Source: Slackia heliotrinireducens DSM 20476 (GTDB lineage Bacteria; Actinomycetota; Coriobacteriia; Coriobacteriales; Eggerthellaceae). From it: 64,000 nt of DNA. Shown one piece after another: positions 3,262-19,588 of this stretch. The translations under genes were made by a program, and so were the position numbers. Location of the stretch: positions 2,852,001-2,916,000 of the forward strand of contig NC_013165.1 in NCBI RefSeq assembly GCF_000023885.1, read 5' to 3'. The first letter of the stretch is position 1. Each line of letters begins with the position of its first letter. The notes under the pieces were generated by a model. The model saw only the letters and a program-made list of their open reading frames with translations. It made no database searches and was not told the DNA's origin.

Positions 3262-4959
3262 TTATTCTTGCCGCACCTGACGAAACATGCGAGAAATCGC
3301 CGAGACGCTCATAAGGGGATGAGATAAATCAATCCCCACCGCTTCGGCGAGCCTATCGCTCAAATGGCTTCGATAGTTGAAGAAGTATTGCCCTGGACTG
3401 ATTTCGAGGCCCGTTAGCTGGACGAGCGTGTCGAGATGCGTCTCATCGGCAGGTCCTGCCTCGGCACTTTCGCAGATCAGGTGCTTTGTGCAGGACGCCA
3501 AAAAGCATATGAGAAAGTGCGCCTGGATATAACGATTTCGCGAAAGCCAGCTTGGATACGCGCTCCATTCTCCCGGCATGGGTTCGAATTCGACTTGCAT
3601 TTCGTCCAACTTACGGTATAGCCCGATGACCTGCGTTTCTGAAAGATCGAGCTCGGACGTGACAAGATTCAGATAGCCGTCCATCGCCTCGTCGGCAGCT
3701 ATTCTGTCCCAATATACCTGCCATACACGACTGTCCGTTTCGCTTGGCCGGGCGCCGTCTGATTTGTAGATGGCACGCACCGAACGAGCAGAGCCATCCA
3801 AAGACCGGCCATTGGCGAACGCGTTCTCAGTTCGTTTGACTATCCGGAATCGGTTGAAACGCCTGGACTCGTACTCGTCGCGTAACCACGCCGCCACTTC
3901 TTTAACGGCGATGCTGCCTGGATGCTTGCGGGCGCCAAAACCTTCAATCGAACGCACGTCCATGCGCTGTTTGCAGCGGGACCCATTATCATCAAGCGGT
4001 TTATACCCTTTCGCATCGATGAGCCACATGCGAGAACTCTGTTTGCCCTTGCGTAACGACTGCGGCAATGCAAAGCCGAATCCTCGGTCGGAAAGCTCAC
4101 CGAGCTCGAAGCTATCTGCGCCAACGGCTTTGCGGGAGACGACAACGAGACGTGTGTCGGGATGGCGCTCGGCAAGTTCGATCATGGCAGGAAACGAACT
4201 AAGCGGCGCAGCCAGGCTTGCGCAGAAAACAGCATAATCGAGCGGCATGCCTTCTCCGTTCGTCATTAACGCAAACTGGACGACGGGATTGTCGCGGTTT
4301 TGCCAAGGCTTCGCAAAGTCCGGCTTGTCGTAGCGAGTTCCTTCAATATAGAAATTAGTTACGAAGCAGTACGCATGCGAATGTCCCCGTTCATGTCGCT
4401 CGCTGCGCATGGCTTTACCTACGTGCTTGCGCAGCTTCGAGAAATCGCTCCCCAATGCATCCATGGCTTTGGACAGATCGTCGCAGGTCAAGCTCGACAT
4501 GCCGGGAATTCGCGAACGCAACGAGCACGCCTCGATTGCGGGTTGCAATCGAGCAATTCGGTTCCACACAAGAAGCTCCACCGCTCGTACGAGCGCCTTT
4601 TCAGCTACGAATCGATTACCGCAACGTTTGAGCGCGTTGCCGATATGCAAGCTTTGATGGAGGAAGGCGAACGCGATAGCCGACCCCGCCTCAACAGAAC
4701 GCCCCCGGCCAAACGGAATTCTCGCATTCTCCGAATACGACAACGTCACAGGAGGCTTTTTGTCGGCATGAGAAAGGTTCAGCTCCTCAACAACACTTTG
4801 AAAATGAGCGATTGGATTGGCGAAGCTTTTTTCAAGCTCGTCGAGATAGCCCAAGCTCCAAAGCGTTTTGGACCGCGGCTTTCCTTCCATCGAACGATAA
4901 CTCTGCACGATAGATAAGTACACGCGGCCGTTGGCTTTTTTCTGCTTGCGTAGGTACAT
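3262..4959 (-). CDS. IS1634-family transposase-like protein, catalytic residues apparently lost
   Basis: A 565-residue protein with the layout of IS1634/IS4-type transposases: N-terminal MYLRKQKKANGRVYLSIV, a central RNase H-like core (TNFYIE, NPVVQFALMTNGEGMPL, SDRGFGFALPQSLRKG) and a C-terminal segment IQAHFLICFLA. Family members carry a DDE triad. At the expected first Asp (YDVTNFY-type motif) this protein has Phe199, at the second (VVADRGLNS-type) it has Arg276, and at the catalytic Glu it has Gln455. The frame is otherwise intact with no stop. No flanking terminal repeats or second copy were seen. It is either a recently dead element or a transposase kept for DNA binding; the alignment is by eye. 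Confidence 0.75.
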   Translation of the reverse strand: MYLRKQKKANGRVYLSIVQSYRSMEGKPRSKTLWSLGYLDELEKSFANPIAHFQSVVEELNLSHADKKPPVTLSYSENARIPFGRGRSVEAGSAIAFAFLHQSLHIGNALKRCGNRFVAEKALVRAVELLVWNRIARLQPAIEACSLRSRIPGMSSLTCDDLSKAMDALGSDFSKLRKHVGKAMRSERHERGHSHAYCFVTNFYIEGTRYDKPDFAKPWQNRDNPVVQFALMTNGEGMPLDYAVFCASLAAPLSSFPAMIELAERHPDTRLVVVSRKAVGADSFELGELSDRGFGFALPQSLRKGKQSSRMWLIDAKGYKPLDDNGSRCKQRMDVRSIEGFGARKHPGSIAVKEVAAWLRDEYESRRFNRFRIVKRTENAFANGRSLDGSARSVRAIYKSDGARPSETDSRVWQVYWDRIAADEAMDGYLNLVTSELDLSETQVIGLYRKLDEMQVEFEPMPGEWSAYPSWLSRNRYIQAHFLICFLASCTKHLICESAEAGPADETHLDTLVQLTGLEISPGQYFFNYRSHLSDRLAEAVGIDLSHPLMSVSAISRMFRQVRQE

Positions 4960-16679: not shown

Positions 16680-16687
16680 TTGCGTAT

Positions 16688-16771
16688 CGGAGATAAAAAC
16701 ACGACCCCGTCGGGTAGTCGGGGTGCGCCGACCGGCGTCAGTAACCTGCCTCCTTGGTTGTCCCTTCTCCG
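16688..16771 (+). ncRNA. Structured leader, candidate yjdF-type riboswitch
   Basis: The leader folds by eye into a closing stem CGGAGA (16688-16693) with TCTCCG (16766-16771), enclosing three hairpins: ACCCCG/CGGGGT (16704-16709 with 16719-16724), GCGCC/GGCGT (16725-16729 with 16734-16738) and AACC/GGTT (16743-16746 with 16756-16759). It precedes a DUF2992/YjdF gene. In Firmicutes such genes follow the yjdF riboswitch (Rfam RF01764), which responds to azaaromatic compounds. I cannot check the consensus, so the class is inferred from context. Confidence 0.55.
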
Positions 16772-16802
16772 CGTGGTGACTTACATAAAGGAGGAAATCG
16801 CC

Positions 16803-17228
16803 ATGCGGAAGATCAGGGTATCCTCCACCCTGACCGTCTATTACGACGGCCAGTTTTGGGTGGGGGTGTTCGAGCGTGTCGAGGACGACCGCTACAGCGC
16901 ATGCCGCGTCGTGTTCGGCGCGGAGCCGTCGAACGAGGAGGTCCTGGACCTCGTCTGCAGCAGGTACAACGAGCTTCGCTTCACGAAGCCAACGGCCCAC
17001 TTGGAAACGCCGAAGCGGGCCGCGAACCCCAAGCGACGCCAGCGCGAGGCGTCCCGAGAGATGAGGCAGCGCGGCCCATCCACCAAGGCGCAGCAGGCAC
17101 TGCAAGAGGAGCGCGAGGCGTCCACCCAACAGAGGAAAGCCGACGCCCGCGACAGGCGAGAAGACGAAAAGCGCCAGCGGTTCGAGCAACGGCAGGAGAA
17201 ACGAAAGGCGAAGCACCGCGGCAAGTGA
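16803..17228 (+). CDS. YjdF-like (DUF2992) protein
   Basis: A 141-residue DUF2992 protein. The N-terminal 60 residues form the conserved part (STLTVYYDGQFWVGVFERVEDDRYSACRVVFGAEP); the rest is a highly charged Arg/Lys/Glu helix, typical of the family, which suggests nucleic-acid binding. Function is unknown; in Firmicutes the gene is controlled by a riboswitch sensing azaaromatics. ATG 16803 follows AAAGGAGG. The structured leader and promoter upstream match that arrangement. Confidence 0.88.
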   Translation: MRKIRVSSTLTVYYDGQFWVGVFERVEDDRYSACRVVFGAEPSNEEVLDLVCSRYNELRFTKPTAHLETPKRAANPKRRQREASREMRQRGPSTKAQQALQEEREASTQQRKADARDRREDEKRQRFEQRQEKRKAKHRGK

Positions 17229-17239
17229 AGCCCACGGCG

Positions 17240-17268
17240 TTCCACAACCGTAGTCGGCATGATATGAT
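17240..17268 (+). promoter_or_regulatory. Candidate promoter of the methyltransferase gene
   Basis: TTCCAC (17240-17245), 17 bp, TATGAT (17263-17268). The start near 17275 would leave about 60 nt before the folded leader. Confidence 0.45.
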
Positions 17269-17335
17269 GCTTGCGATACGCGGGGCATGGGGCCTCGCGG
17301 CAACGGCCATCCAAGGGGATGTCTTTTTGGTCATT

Positions 17336-17439
17336 GTTCTGTAGGGAACGCTAGAACCTAACGATTCGAGAGGGGCACGTAGCTGCCCTTGGTTCGCTGC
17401 GTTCCGAATCCATCCACAGCTAACGGATTCTCACAGAAC
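17336..17439 (+). ncRNA. Unassigned structured leader with a compact three-way junction
   Basis: Read directly: P1 GTTCTGT (17336-17342) with ACAGAAC (17433-17439); P2 GGAACGC (17345-17351) with GCGTTCC (17399-17405); P3 GAACC (17354-17358) with GGTTC (17391-17395), topped by AGGGGCA/TGCCCTT (17371-17377 with 17384-17390) around the loop CGTAGC; P4 GAATCC (17406-17411) with GGATTC (17425-17430). Junction strands are 2, 0 and 2 nt. The 3' strand of P1 touches AGGA (17440-17443), the probable ribosome site of the gene at 17451. This is the layout of a translational riboswitch or other cis-regulator; I do not recognise the class. Confidence 0.65.
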
Positions 17440-17450
17440 AGGACAAGACG

Positions 17451-18167
17451 ATGAACTTCCCGAAGGCTAACTCCTTCTCAACATCCATCATGCGCGAGCG
17501 CAGCATGGGGCCCAACCCGCTCAAGCTCTGCGAGGAGCTGCTGGAATACGCAGACATTCACGCAGGCTCCGTCGTGCTCGACCTCGGCAGCGGCGCCGGG
17601 CTCACGAGCGCCCTCATGGCGCGCGAGTTCGGCCTCACCGTGTACGCAGCCGACCTCTGGAGCGACCCGTCCGACAACATGCGCTTCTTCGAGGCGTGCG
17701 GCCTCACCAACCGGCAGATCATCCCGCTCAAGGCTGACGCGACCGCGCTTCCCTTTGCGCACGAGTTCTTCGACGCGGTGGTGAGCGTCGACTCGTACAA
17801 CTACTTCGGCCGCGACCCCCGCTACCTCGGCGGGCACCTGCTGCCGCTCGTCAAGCGTGGCGGCGAGCTGCTCTTTGCCATACCCGGCATGGTGCGCGAC
17901 TGCCACGACGACCTGCCCGCGTGCCTGCTCGCGTCCTGGACGCCCGAGCAGCTCGACTACATGCACGACATGTCTTGGTGGCGCGTCAACATCGAGCAGA
18001 CCGAGGATGTCGAGGTCCTCGACATGCGCGAGATGGCCTGCACGCGCGAGGCGTGGGCCGACTGGATCGGGTGCGACAACGAGTACGCTGCGGGCGACCG
18101 CGCCGCCGTCGAGGCCGGTGCGCTCGACCATCTCAACACCATCGCCGTGAGGCTCAGGCGCAGGTAG
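17451..18167 (+). CDS. Class I SAM-dependent methyltransferase
   Basis: A 238-residue class I methyltransferase. The SAM-binding glycine loop is VVLDLGSGAG (41-50), followed by the acidic residue after the second strand (YAADLW) and motif II (FDAVVSVDSYNYFG). Start and end look complete. The substrate is unknown. It follows the YjdF-like gene and has its own structured leader whose last stem abuts the ribosome site, so expression is probably controlled at translation. An N-methyltransferase acting on heteroaromatic compounds would fit the neighbouring YjdF system, but that is speculation. Confidence 0.85.
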   Translation: MNFPKANSFSTSIMRERSMGPNPLKLCEELLEYADIHAGSVVLDLGSGAGLTSALMAREFGLTVYAADLWSDPSDNMRFFEACGLTNRQIIPLKADATALPFAHEFFDAVVSVDSYNYFGRDPRYLGGHLLPLVKRGGELLFAIPGMVRDCHDDLPACLLASWTPEQLDYMHDMSWWRVNIEQTEDVEVLDMREMACTREAWADWIGCDNEYAAGDRAAVEAGALDHLNTIAVRLRRR

Positions 18168-18231: not shown

Positions 18232-18296
18232 CCCGGCGGCCCCGTGGCGGGTACCTTCGCCTTGCCATGGGTCCACCGACGGATAGGAGAATCATA

Positions 18297-18983
18297 GTGA
18301 GAGAGATGGCAGAACCAAGAAGGGACCTCGCAATGGGGACGGCGCTGCTCGCCGCGTTCGGACTCTGGACGGCGCTGGTGCAGCTCGTGGACGTGCGTCC
18401 GGTCGGGCAGAACGGCACGGACGTCGGATTCGCGGCATTCAACGTATGGTTCCACGGCCTAACGGGCGTACACATGGTCCTCTACGCGATCACCGACTGG
18501 CTCGGCCTCGTGCCGGTAGCCGTTTGCCTTGGCTTCGGGGCCATGGGCGCCACGCAGCTCGTCAGGCGCAGGAGCCTCTTTGCAGTCGATCCCGACCTGC
18601 TGCTCCTCGGCGTCCACTACGTCTTGGTCGCAGCCGCGTATCTGGTCTTCGAGGCGTTCCCGATAAACTACCGGCCGATCCCCATCGACGGCGTCATGGA
18701 AGCGTCCTACCCGTCCTCGACGACGCTGCTGGTCCTGGGCGTCATGCCGACGCTGGCCTACCAGATCGCGCGGAGGTCGAAGAGCATTCAGGCAAAGGTT
18801 GCCGTCGTCGCCTTCGTGGCCGCGTTCTCCGCCCTCATGGTCGCCGGCAGGCTGGTCTCCGGCGTGCACTGGGCCACCGACATCGCCGGCTCGGTTCTCC
18901 TGGCGGCTGGTCTGTTCGCGATGTACCGGTACGCCGTCGCGCAAGCCGACGCAAGGCTTACCACTGCACGATTGGAGGGATGA
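18297..18983 (+). CDS. PAP2-superfamily membrane phosphatase
   Basis: A 228-residue integral membrane protein with about six helices. PAP2 signature parts are visible: a PSST version of the PSGH motif (SYPSSTT) and GRLVSGVHWATD, matching SRxxxxxHxxxD with the catalytic His and Asp. It probably removes phosphate from a lipid such as a phosphatidate or isoprenoid pyrophosphate. The start is a GTG at 18297 with AGGAG at the right distance; an ATG at 18306 is an alternative. Its TGA is eight bases from a membrane-bound XRE regulator, so the two form an operon. Confidence 0.8.
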   Translation: MREMAEPRRDLAMGTALLAAFGLWTALVQLVDVRPVGQNGTDVGFAAFNVWFHGLTGVHMVLYAITDWLGLVPVAVCLGFGAMGATQLVRRRSLFAVDPDLLLLGVHYVLVAAAYLVFEAFPINYRPIPIDGVMEASYPSSTTLLVLGVMPTLAYQIARRSKSIQAKVAVVAFVAAFSALMVAGRLVSGVHWATDIAGSVLLAAGLFAMYRYAVAQADARLTTARLEG

Positions 18984-18985
18984 CG

Positions 18986-19588
18986 ATGGAGTTCGGCGAG
19001 AAACTGCAGGAGCTAAGGAAGGCGCGCTCGCTCACGCAGGAGCAGCTGGCAGAGGCGCTCTACGTCTCGAGGACGGCCGTGTCCAAGTGGGAGTCCGGCA
19101 GGGGCTACCCGAGCATCGATTCGCTCAAGGAGGTGTCGCGCTTTTTCTCGGTGACGATAGACGAGCTTATAAGCCCTGACGAGGTCGTGTCGGTCGCACA
19201 GGCCGAAAGGAGGTCCTTCGCACGCGGGTATGCGTCGATGGTGTGCGGGCTGTTGGACGTTTTGGTTGCGCTGCTCCTGGTTGTGCCGGTGTTCGGCAAC
19301 GGCCCCGAGGGTCCGGCTGCGGTCAGCCTGCTCGCGCTAACCGGCGCCAGCACATGGATCAAAGTGGTCTTTACCGCATGCGTCGGGGCGACTGTGATTT
19401 GCGGGCTCTGCGAGATCGCCGCATCCCGCGCCGACGGACGATGGGGGAAGCTGGCCCTGGCGGCGGGGGCCGCGCTTTCCGCTGCCTGCGTGGCCGTCTT
19501 CATCCTGGCGAGGCAGCCTTACGCTGGCATCATTTGCTTCGCGCTGCTCGCGGCGAAGGCAGTTATGCTCTGGATGCGCGACCGCTAG
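18986..19588 (+). CDS. XRE regulator with a C-terminal membrane domain
   Basis: A 200-residue protein: XRE helix-turn-helix at about 5-60 (LTQEQLAEALYVSRTAVSKWESG), then four hydrophobic helices from about residue 85. Such membrane-tethered XRE proteins are common in Firmicutes and Actinobacteria and may sense membrane or wall state. Start 18986 is preferred because GGAGGG lies six bases before it; ATG 18980 overlaps the upstream TGA. Co-transcribed with the PAP2 phosphatase. Confidence 0.8.
   Translation: MEFGEKLQELRKARSLTQEQLAEALYVSRTAVSKWESGRGYPSIDSLKEVSRFFSVTIDELISPDEVVSVAQAERRSFARGYASMVCGLLDVLVALLLVVPVFGNGPEGPAAVSLLALTGASTWIKVVFTACVGATVICGLCEIAASRADGRWGKLALAAGAALSAACVAVFILARQPYAGIICFALLAAKAVMLWMRDR

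Follow-up and report, generated by a model that had tools for sequence, protein, structure and literature searches.

Leaders of the ermC type act by translation attenuation through a leader ORF. In the Bacillus subtilis tlrB (yxjB) leader, as described in the sections of PMC6851288 drawn on here, the hairpin that hides the Shine-Dalgarno (SD) sequence also blocks the leader ORF. The toiL upstream ORF (uORF) of the Escherichia coli topAI-yjhQ-yjhP operon lies in a region that pairs around the downstream ribosome-binding site (RBS). When stalled at its start codon, ribosomes extend to +16 to +18; in the authors' proposal, the next RBS is unmasked by ribosomes held at any point on the uORF (excerpts of PMC12121999). 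The tetracycline uORF of the tetQ leader from Bacteroides CTnDOT is 'only four codons long' (Wang 2005 as quoted in part of PMC12121999; tetQ according to part of PMC5418344).

The leader analyzed here precedes a methyltransferase gene of Slackia heliotrinireducens DSM 20476. Its sequence and that of its relatives make it a probable member of the ermC/tlrB/toiL type of translation attenuator, here with a leader ORF of minimal size, and a new RNA family. In common with tlrB and the ermC-type leaders, in the passages of PMC6851288 and PMC5418344 that describe them, it has a leader ORF with an SD sequence and an SD-sequestering structure over a methyltransferase gene, and it may share with tlrB a timing problem before that structure forms. 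The tlrB and ermC enzymes methylate 23S rRNA, whereas the enzyme here has, by its listed structural matches, a small-molecule type fold; likewise, the tlrB peptide has an R-X-R arrest motif, whereas the macrolide-arrest motif R/K-X-R/K is absent from the peptides of the 74 leaders compared here, which are mostly MVIVL. The likeness to toiL, drawn by description, is an ORF-RBS pairing that held ribosomes open, here by prediction. It differs in that a five-codon UUG ORF encloses a junction, and in the regulated gene and the host. The toiL operon includes yjhP, and YjhP (1nkv) ranks 43rd among the listed fold matches of this methyltransferase. A very short uORF, translation attenuation and proposed start-codon stalling also liken the leader to tetQ as described in those excerpts, in another host phylum and before another gene. 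The azaaromatic (yjdF) riboswitch lies at the same locus, is also a translational switch and possibly answers the same stimulus, but the two RNAs are distinct, and the RF01764 model has no match in the leader at 17314-17453.

The window is the whole 64,000 nucleotide stretch of DNA that was analyzed. The following features, all on the forward strand, define the locus within it.

16683-16781 (+): azaaromatic (yjdF) riboswitch RF01764, 71.1 bits, before the yjdF gene
16803-17228 (+): YjdF/DUF2992 protein gene, a recurrent neighbor of the methyltransferase
17241-17268 (+): promoter-like site, TCCACA, 16 nt and a TG-extended TATGAT; 9 of 12 matches, 0.1 expected in shuffles
17279-17299 (+): P0 hairpin CGCGGGGC-ATGGG-GCCTCGCG, near the inferred 5' end
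17314-17330 (+): near-invariant block AGGGGATGTCTTTTTGG, with SD-like AGGGG, 8 nt spacer and UUG ORF start
17327-17344 (+): proposed leader ORF, UUG GUC AUU GUU CUG UAG (M V I V L stop), with a fixed stop
17336-17342 (+): P1 5' strand, inside the leader ORF; partner 17433-17439, 7 bp
17345-17351/17399-17405 (+): P2, 7 bp, in the predicted fold and the covariance-model alignment
17354-17358/17391-17395 (+): P2b, 5 bp, in the predicted fold and the covariance-model alignment
17371-17377/17384-17390 (+): P3 hairpin, 7 bp with one G-U
17406-17411/17425-17430 (+): P4 hairpin, 6 bp, absent from some clades
17433-17439 (+): P1 3' strand, abutting the methyltransferase SD
17440-17443 (+): AGGA, SD of the methyltransferase, fully paired in the predicted fold
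17451-18167 (+): methyltransferase gene (class I, SAM-dependent; Methyltransf_11; 238 aa), predicted fold of small-molecule type

The conserved core of the leader is AGGGGAUGUCUUUUUGG followed by UUG GUC AUU GUU CUN UAR, about 31 nt at 17314-17344. With the preceding A the SD-like sequence reads AAGGGG (17313-17318), and the UUG begins 13 nt past the A of AGGGG. The leader set comprised 106 sequences, of which 75 were distinct; L060, with a one-base deletion, was left out, giving 74. Sixteen loci had been skipped before the 106 were assembled (14 chance motif matches, one duplicate of the window, and L104 at a contig edge), and loci with no recognizable methyltransferase start (L005, L081, L095, L107, L110, L111, L112, L128 and L130) were excluded from the 106. 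The stop of the leader ORF is at an identical offset in all 74 leaders (63 TAG, 11 TAA), and the first stops of the other two frames scatter. UUG is kept in 73, with one UUU; AUG or GUG is never seen. Codon 5 is CUN in 71 of the 74, with all four third bases occurring. The U and A of the stop are invariant, even though the predicted folds of 27 leaders have them paired in 22 and 17 cases respectively, unlike the adjoining paired position, the third base of codon 5, which co-varies. The peptide is xVIVL in 59 leaders (58 with UUG). The others are VLVL and DLVL (4 each), VLAL (2), and VFVL, DLVQ, VVVF, NLVR and VPVL (1 each).

We infer from these sequence features that the leader ORF, which at five codons is too short for a codon-substitution test, is translated. 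The strictness of the UUG exceeds what a start codon needs, a point that weighs to some degree against interpreting the stretch simply as an ORF. In L039 and L060, both closely related, either the UUG or the frame has been lost. Translation of the AUG frame into a leader peptide (MSFWSLFC...) was considered and rejected, since the first stops of that frame are scattered and the fourth codon in L077 is UGA; L077, with the AUG frame so broken, retains UUG AAC CUU GUC CGA UAG.

In every representative inspected, the part of the leader ORF that forms the P1 5' strand is able to pair, with differing letters, with the region of the methyltransferase RBS. In the window GUUCUGU pairs with ACAGAAC ahead of the AGGA. 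By eye, the pairing is of 11 bp over the SD in L053 (CCUUGUCCUGU/ACAGGACAAGG), of 11 bp past the SD and including the AUG in L113 (CAUUGUUCUUU/AAAGAACAAUG), and of 14 bp spanning about 200 nt in L123 (UUCUAUAAAGAACG/CGUUCUUUAUAGAA). The register slides between clades, lying before, over or after the SD and at times including the AUG. The predicted duplex of each ORF strand with its own RBS partner averages -19.05 kcal/mol in 27 representatives (<70% identity), compared with -15.35 (sd 0.63) for permuted partners, and none of 20,000 permutations was as good. Five controls (the reversed strand, three other upstream or internal regions, and coding sequence) gave z values of -1.9 to +1.4. With L078 and L116, in which the wrong start was scored and which were left out of the n=27 analyses, the figures for 29 leaders are -18.38 and -14.98. 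A leader's own partner ranks first in only 3 of these 29, probably because clade mates pair equally well, so the test discriminates between clades. The weakest duplexes are those of L136 (-10.0 kcal/mol) and L076 (-12.4 kcal/mol).

A covariance model made from 21 main-clade leaders gave 48 matches at E up to 0.1 in a search set of the window and 51 of the 137 loci, 7 of these 52 being in the training set. All 47 leader-bearing sources were matched, and none of the archaeal or other loci (L065-L069). The earlier note had asked for covariation among homologues, and this is found between clades and is weak within the main clade alone. In the covariance-model alignment 27 of 30 pairs are changed on both sides, compared with 17.8 in shuffles (0 of 500), although this alignment was fitted to the structure and the result is thereby favored. 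Five of the seven P1 pairs have two-sided changes, P2 and P3 co-vary too, and slid structures on the same alignment reach at most 15 two-sided pairs. For the main clade alone, with P3 misaligned, 4 pairs are changed on both sides, compared with 1.9 in shuffles (12 of 500), and the percentage paired was reached by 72 of 500 shuffles. RNAalifold on the all-clade MAFFT alignment returned only a G-U-rich hairpin, CCAAGGGG/CUUUUUGG, with no two-sided change. A pseudoknot of CUUUUUGG with CCGAAUAG was also tried by eye; it fits some clades, fails others and was rejected.

The window leader is predicted to fold stably. The four helices described in the earlier note (7, 7, 5+7 and 6 bp), around a three-way junction with strands of 2, 0 and 2 nt, are all present where it placed them. 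The folding energy of 17320-17460 is -50.4 kcal/mol, against a mean of -36.6 for 200 shuffles (sd 3.9; z -3.52), none of which was equally stable. The closing helix does lie at the ribosome site: it abuts the AGGA at 17440 directly, and the predicted P1 (UUGUUCUGU/ACAGAACAG) extends into it through GUC/GAC, so that the AGGA is wholly paired. The main clade has the P0 hairpin, which some other clades are without, with compensating changes noted by eye and uncounted. A -10-like hexamer is seen by eye around the position of the promoter-like site in many main-clade relatives.

Other parts of the earlier description did not hold among relatives. The loops proposed as conserved (TAACGATTCGAG, CGTAGC and ATCCACAGCTAAC) are variable. 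The boundaries 17336-17439 take in only the 3' two thirds of the element, most of the conserved core being upstream of them. The three-way junction is inconstant by eye, with P4 or additional hairpins coming and going, and the domain enclosed by P1 tolerates large insertions and apparent replacement (L014, L045 and L123). The leader of L045 (upstream of 3001) has a large insertion in which the P2-like 5' strand seemingly occurs twice, suggestive of a partial duplication of the enclosed domain, and P1 is apparently kept there through compensating letters.

These properties of the enclosed domain bear on whether the leader is a metabolite riboswitch. P2-P3 and an internal-loop motif, A(A)YSGMAKAR, would then be the aptamer, and binding of a ligand, perhaps an azaaromatic or the substrate of the methyltransferase, would shift P1 and free or hide the RBS, with the 5' block as part of the aptamer or as a pseudoknot partner. 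The motif recurs in 19 of 29 divergent leaders, several of the misses being near-misses, a recurrence that might mark an aptamer or equally a site for a protein and that the attenuator leaves aside; the covariation of P2/P3 fits this reading, as does the riboswitch of the adjoining yjdF gene. However, the motif was not found in the window leader or in several other main-clade leaders, no Rfam riboswitch matches, and a UAR in fixed frame is not accounted for. A riboswitch is considered unlikely, and is not the first choice, because the most conserved letters lie outside the enclosed domain, that is, in the P1 5' strand and upstream of it, while the domain itself can be greatly enlarged or apparently replaced.

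Under the preferred reading, that of an attenuator, the leader ORF would leave the RNA polymerase about 100 nt before the RBS. If no ribosome lingered, P1 would form around P2-P4 and would hide the RBS and probably the leader ORF itself. A ribosome held on the ORF, most simply at the start codon, would cover the P1 5' strand with its footprint (to about +16 to +18); the RBS would stay open and the methyltransferase would be made. Since the ORF is 18 nt long, a ribosome at the UUG would cover about all of it. The signal would therefore be whatever holds ribosomes on the first codons, candidates being a ribosome inhibitor or a toxic aromatic compound that acts on translation, and the role of the methyltransferase would be to detoxify a small molecule by modifying it. 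Stalling as the signal and the direction of control are both proposals, and the identities suggested for signal and substrate are inference only.

A folding model is consistent with this mechanism. Masking of -13 to +18 around the UUG lowered the mean predicted cost of opening the SD-AUG region of the methyltransferase from 9.8 to 4.6 kcal/mol in the 27 representatives, and from 11.5 to 3.0 kcal/mol in the window leader. Control blocks of equal length average 8.6 kcal/mol, and the footprint is below every control block in 24 of the 27. On masking, the RBS also becomes more likely to be unpaired on average (0.36 before, 0.56 after), but less likely in six of the 27 (L009, L014, L045, L077, L123 and L132).

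Because a structure that hides the SD also blocks the leader ORF in tlrB, translation of the leader must precede the structure, and the same is expected here. In tlrB, RNA polymerase pausing is needed for timely translation of the leader peptide (PMC6851288, in the sections used). This bears on a different explanation, in which RNA polymerase pauses, or weakly terminates, at a hairpin that precedes UCUUUUU (17308-17321 or 17311-17330), the hairpin acting alone or timing the attenuator. Two terminator-like matches lie at 17308-17330, where 0.1 would be expected. The stem is only 5 bp, however, and its 5' side drifts while GGAUG is fixed, so that it is weak or absent in several representatives; the co-variation of ORF and RBS is also left unaccounted for. 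A transcription-level element is considered highly improbable.

Relatives of the methyltransferase were found at 56 loci, of which 51 are in Coriobacteriia, to judge by title, and 5 archaeal or other. The Coriobacteriia loci are mostly from metagenome assemblies, together with Slackia sp. ZJ119 and Adlercreutzia sp. ZJ176. A pattern search allowing one mismatch found the block in 63 of 396 Coriobacteriia genomes, with 77 matches listed; the reversed pattern, as a control, matched in 12 genomes among the matches listed. Thirteen of the 77 were judged to be chance matches because the ORF is absent after the block, a number consistent with the control, and were set aside. This leaves 64 block matches in 53 of the 396 genomes; for 53 of these 64, a match to the methyltransferase lies no more than 350 nt away. 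The remaining 11 include some at contig ends, some broken copies, and L077 (G272), which precedes a partial match below the cut.

Conversely, 53 of the 63 methyltransferase match rows have the block within 350 nt upstream. Among copies of at least 58% identity and 500 nt, 50 out of 51 are preceded by the block with at most one mismatch, and the other (L143) by the block with two. All five copies of 53% identity or less are without it, and the other four rows without it are fragments of <500 nt. The block is held nearly letter for letter across several Coriobacteriia families, many of the carriers coming, to judge by title, from animal gut and rumen metagenomes. Outside the class, the exact block was found in none of 270 genomes from the rest of the phylum (1 of 296 overall, the window's own). 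A plasmid or phage origin of the leader was considered and rejected, since searches of 72,556 plasmid and 50,697 phage records gave no match; the one match of the pattern to a viral contig (L103) has neither the ORF nor the methyltransferase.

Wherever the element is intact and a downstream gene is present on the contig, that gene belongs to this methyltransferase family. This speaks against a site for a trans-acting protein or small RNA that recognizes AGGGGAUGUCUUUUUGG and opens or stabilizes P1, since a global factor usually has more targets. Such a factor would explain 17 contiguous near-invariant nucleotides, including a U5 run and the spacer AUGUCUUU, whose near-invariance is without explanation if the leader is an attenuator. 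It would not account for the fixed in-frame UAR, and a trans-factor site is judged very unlikely.

The predicted structure of the methyltransferase has a mean pLDDT of 93. The best structural matches listed are Bacteroides BVU_3255 (Z 22.4), AtmM (20.7), RebM (20.3) and phosphoethanolamine methyltransferases (about 20). These top listed fold relatives are small-molecule or unassigned methyltransferases, though a shared fold gives no indication of the substrate. No rRNA methyltransferase (Erm, RlmA) is among the listed Pfam, NCBIfam or fold matches, and no relative of solved structure was found by sequence at E up to 1e-10.

The neighboring yjdF gene was said in the earlier note to have a riboswitch-like leader, which is indeed the azaaromatic riboswitch at 16683-16781. 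In the sample of 396 genomes of the class, 5 methyltransferase copies have a DUF2992 match no more than 500 bp away, on the same strand in G000, G330 and G380 and divergent twice in G066. At other loci DUF2992 is directly upstream of the methyltransferase (L018) or about 1.4 kb upstream (L046). By a rough estimate of uniform placement that ignores shared descent, the 133 DUF2992 match rows in 396 genomes would put about 0.03 within 2 kb of any of the 52 methyltransferase copies, giving P values of 2e-10 for 5 or more and 0.0004 for 2 or more. The azaaromatic riboswitch is ahead of yjdF in the window, L016, L022 and L026, and was not reported in L012, L018 or L046, the last with little upstream sequence. 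The word 'methyltransferase' is absent from the text of the main yjdF riboswitch paper (PMC4793209).

This recurrent link, often with the azaaromatic riboswitch, suggests that the methyltransferase and YjdF may answer the same toxic compounds, and hints at xenobiotics. A broader proposal is that the 31 nt block, about one initiating-ribosome footprint, represents a new class of ribosome-occupancy sensor, which would detect a ribosome stuck at the first codon of the block's ORF and which switches on a xenobiotic methyltransferase partnering the azaaromatic-controlled YjdF. Both leaders would then respond to one toxic aromatic chemistry, the first by binding it directly and the second via its effect on the ribosome. 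This proposal is tentative and rather doubtful as a whole. Among other neighbors, L018 has a TPP riboswitch (4178-4290) a short distance past the methyltransferase gene. Besides yjdF, a second neighborhood recurs in many relatives: downstream of the methyltransferase come genes for a PAP2 phosphatase and an HTH regulator, as in the window (18282-19585) and in L019, L023, L024, L028-L031, L035 and L038.

The earlier note had proposed that the element touching the ribosome site of this SAM methyltransferase gene would be a new regulatory RNA if its loops recurred in homologues. It is conserved and unrecognized, as proposed, while the constancy of its junction, its loops and its boundaries were not borne out. 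The architecture is indeed without a match in Rfam 15: no family reaches its gathering threshold, and E values up to 10 give just three implausible matches. Thus neither an Rfam match nor a lack of covariation, which the note had named as arguments against novelty, was found. No description of the element was found among the full-text papers listed, which is weak evidence as subscription journals and bioRxiv are mostly outside its coverage; the Rfam result is the stronger evidence of novelty. The excerpts of PMC7247131 list a Coriobacteria L31 leader, which belongs to a different gene.

The regulatory logic is that of the known leader-ORF attenuators, and the RNA family is apparently undescribed. 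Its novelty lies in the family itself, in so small an ORF within a ribosome footprint that hardly varies, in a pairing with the RBS that slides, and in the variable junction that this pairing encloses. If the attenuator reading is correct, this is a new cis-regulatory RNA family that is recurrent in Coriobacteriia, and its unusually small leader ORF, equal in length to a start-codon ribosome footprint, would be a clean model of minimal ribosome-stall sensing. Induction of the methyltransferase may come from stress on translation or from toxic compounds, and the yjdF link would provide a handle both on the protective target of the azaaromatic riboswitch and on the substrate of the methyltransferase.

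Second copies of the leader are present in four genomes of one family (L081, L107, L110 and L112). The leader ORF is intact in these, the 3' P1 strand is replaced, and the copies now precede another reading frame, which we take to be ATPase-like in L081, L107 and L110; in L112 an ABC-ATPase-like frame lies farther downstream. The same broken end recurs among the four, as if spread by recombination. Two methyltransferase genes behind normal leaders have one in-frame stop each, a TGA at G234:C33:28988-29698 and a TAG at G066:C39:48297-49007. Three of the chance matches to the block (L117, L119 and L120; GTCTTTTTGGGACGGGGC) belong to long inverted repeats, almost perfect and confined to one genus among these matches, which may represent a small mobile element of palindromic form.
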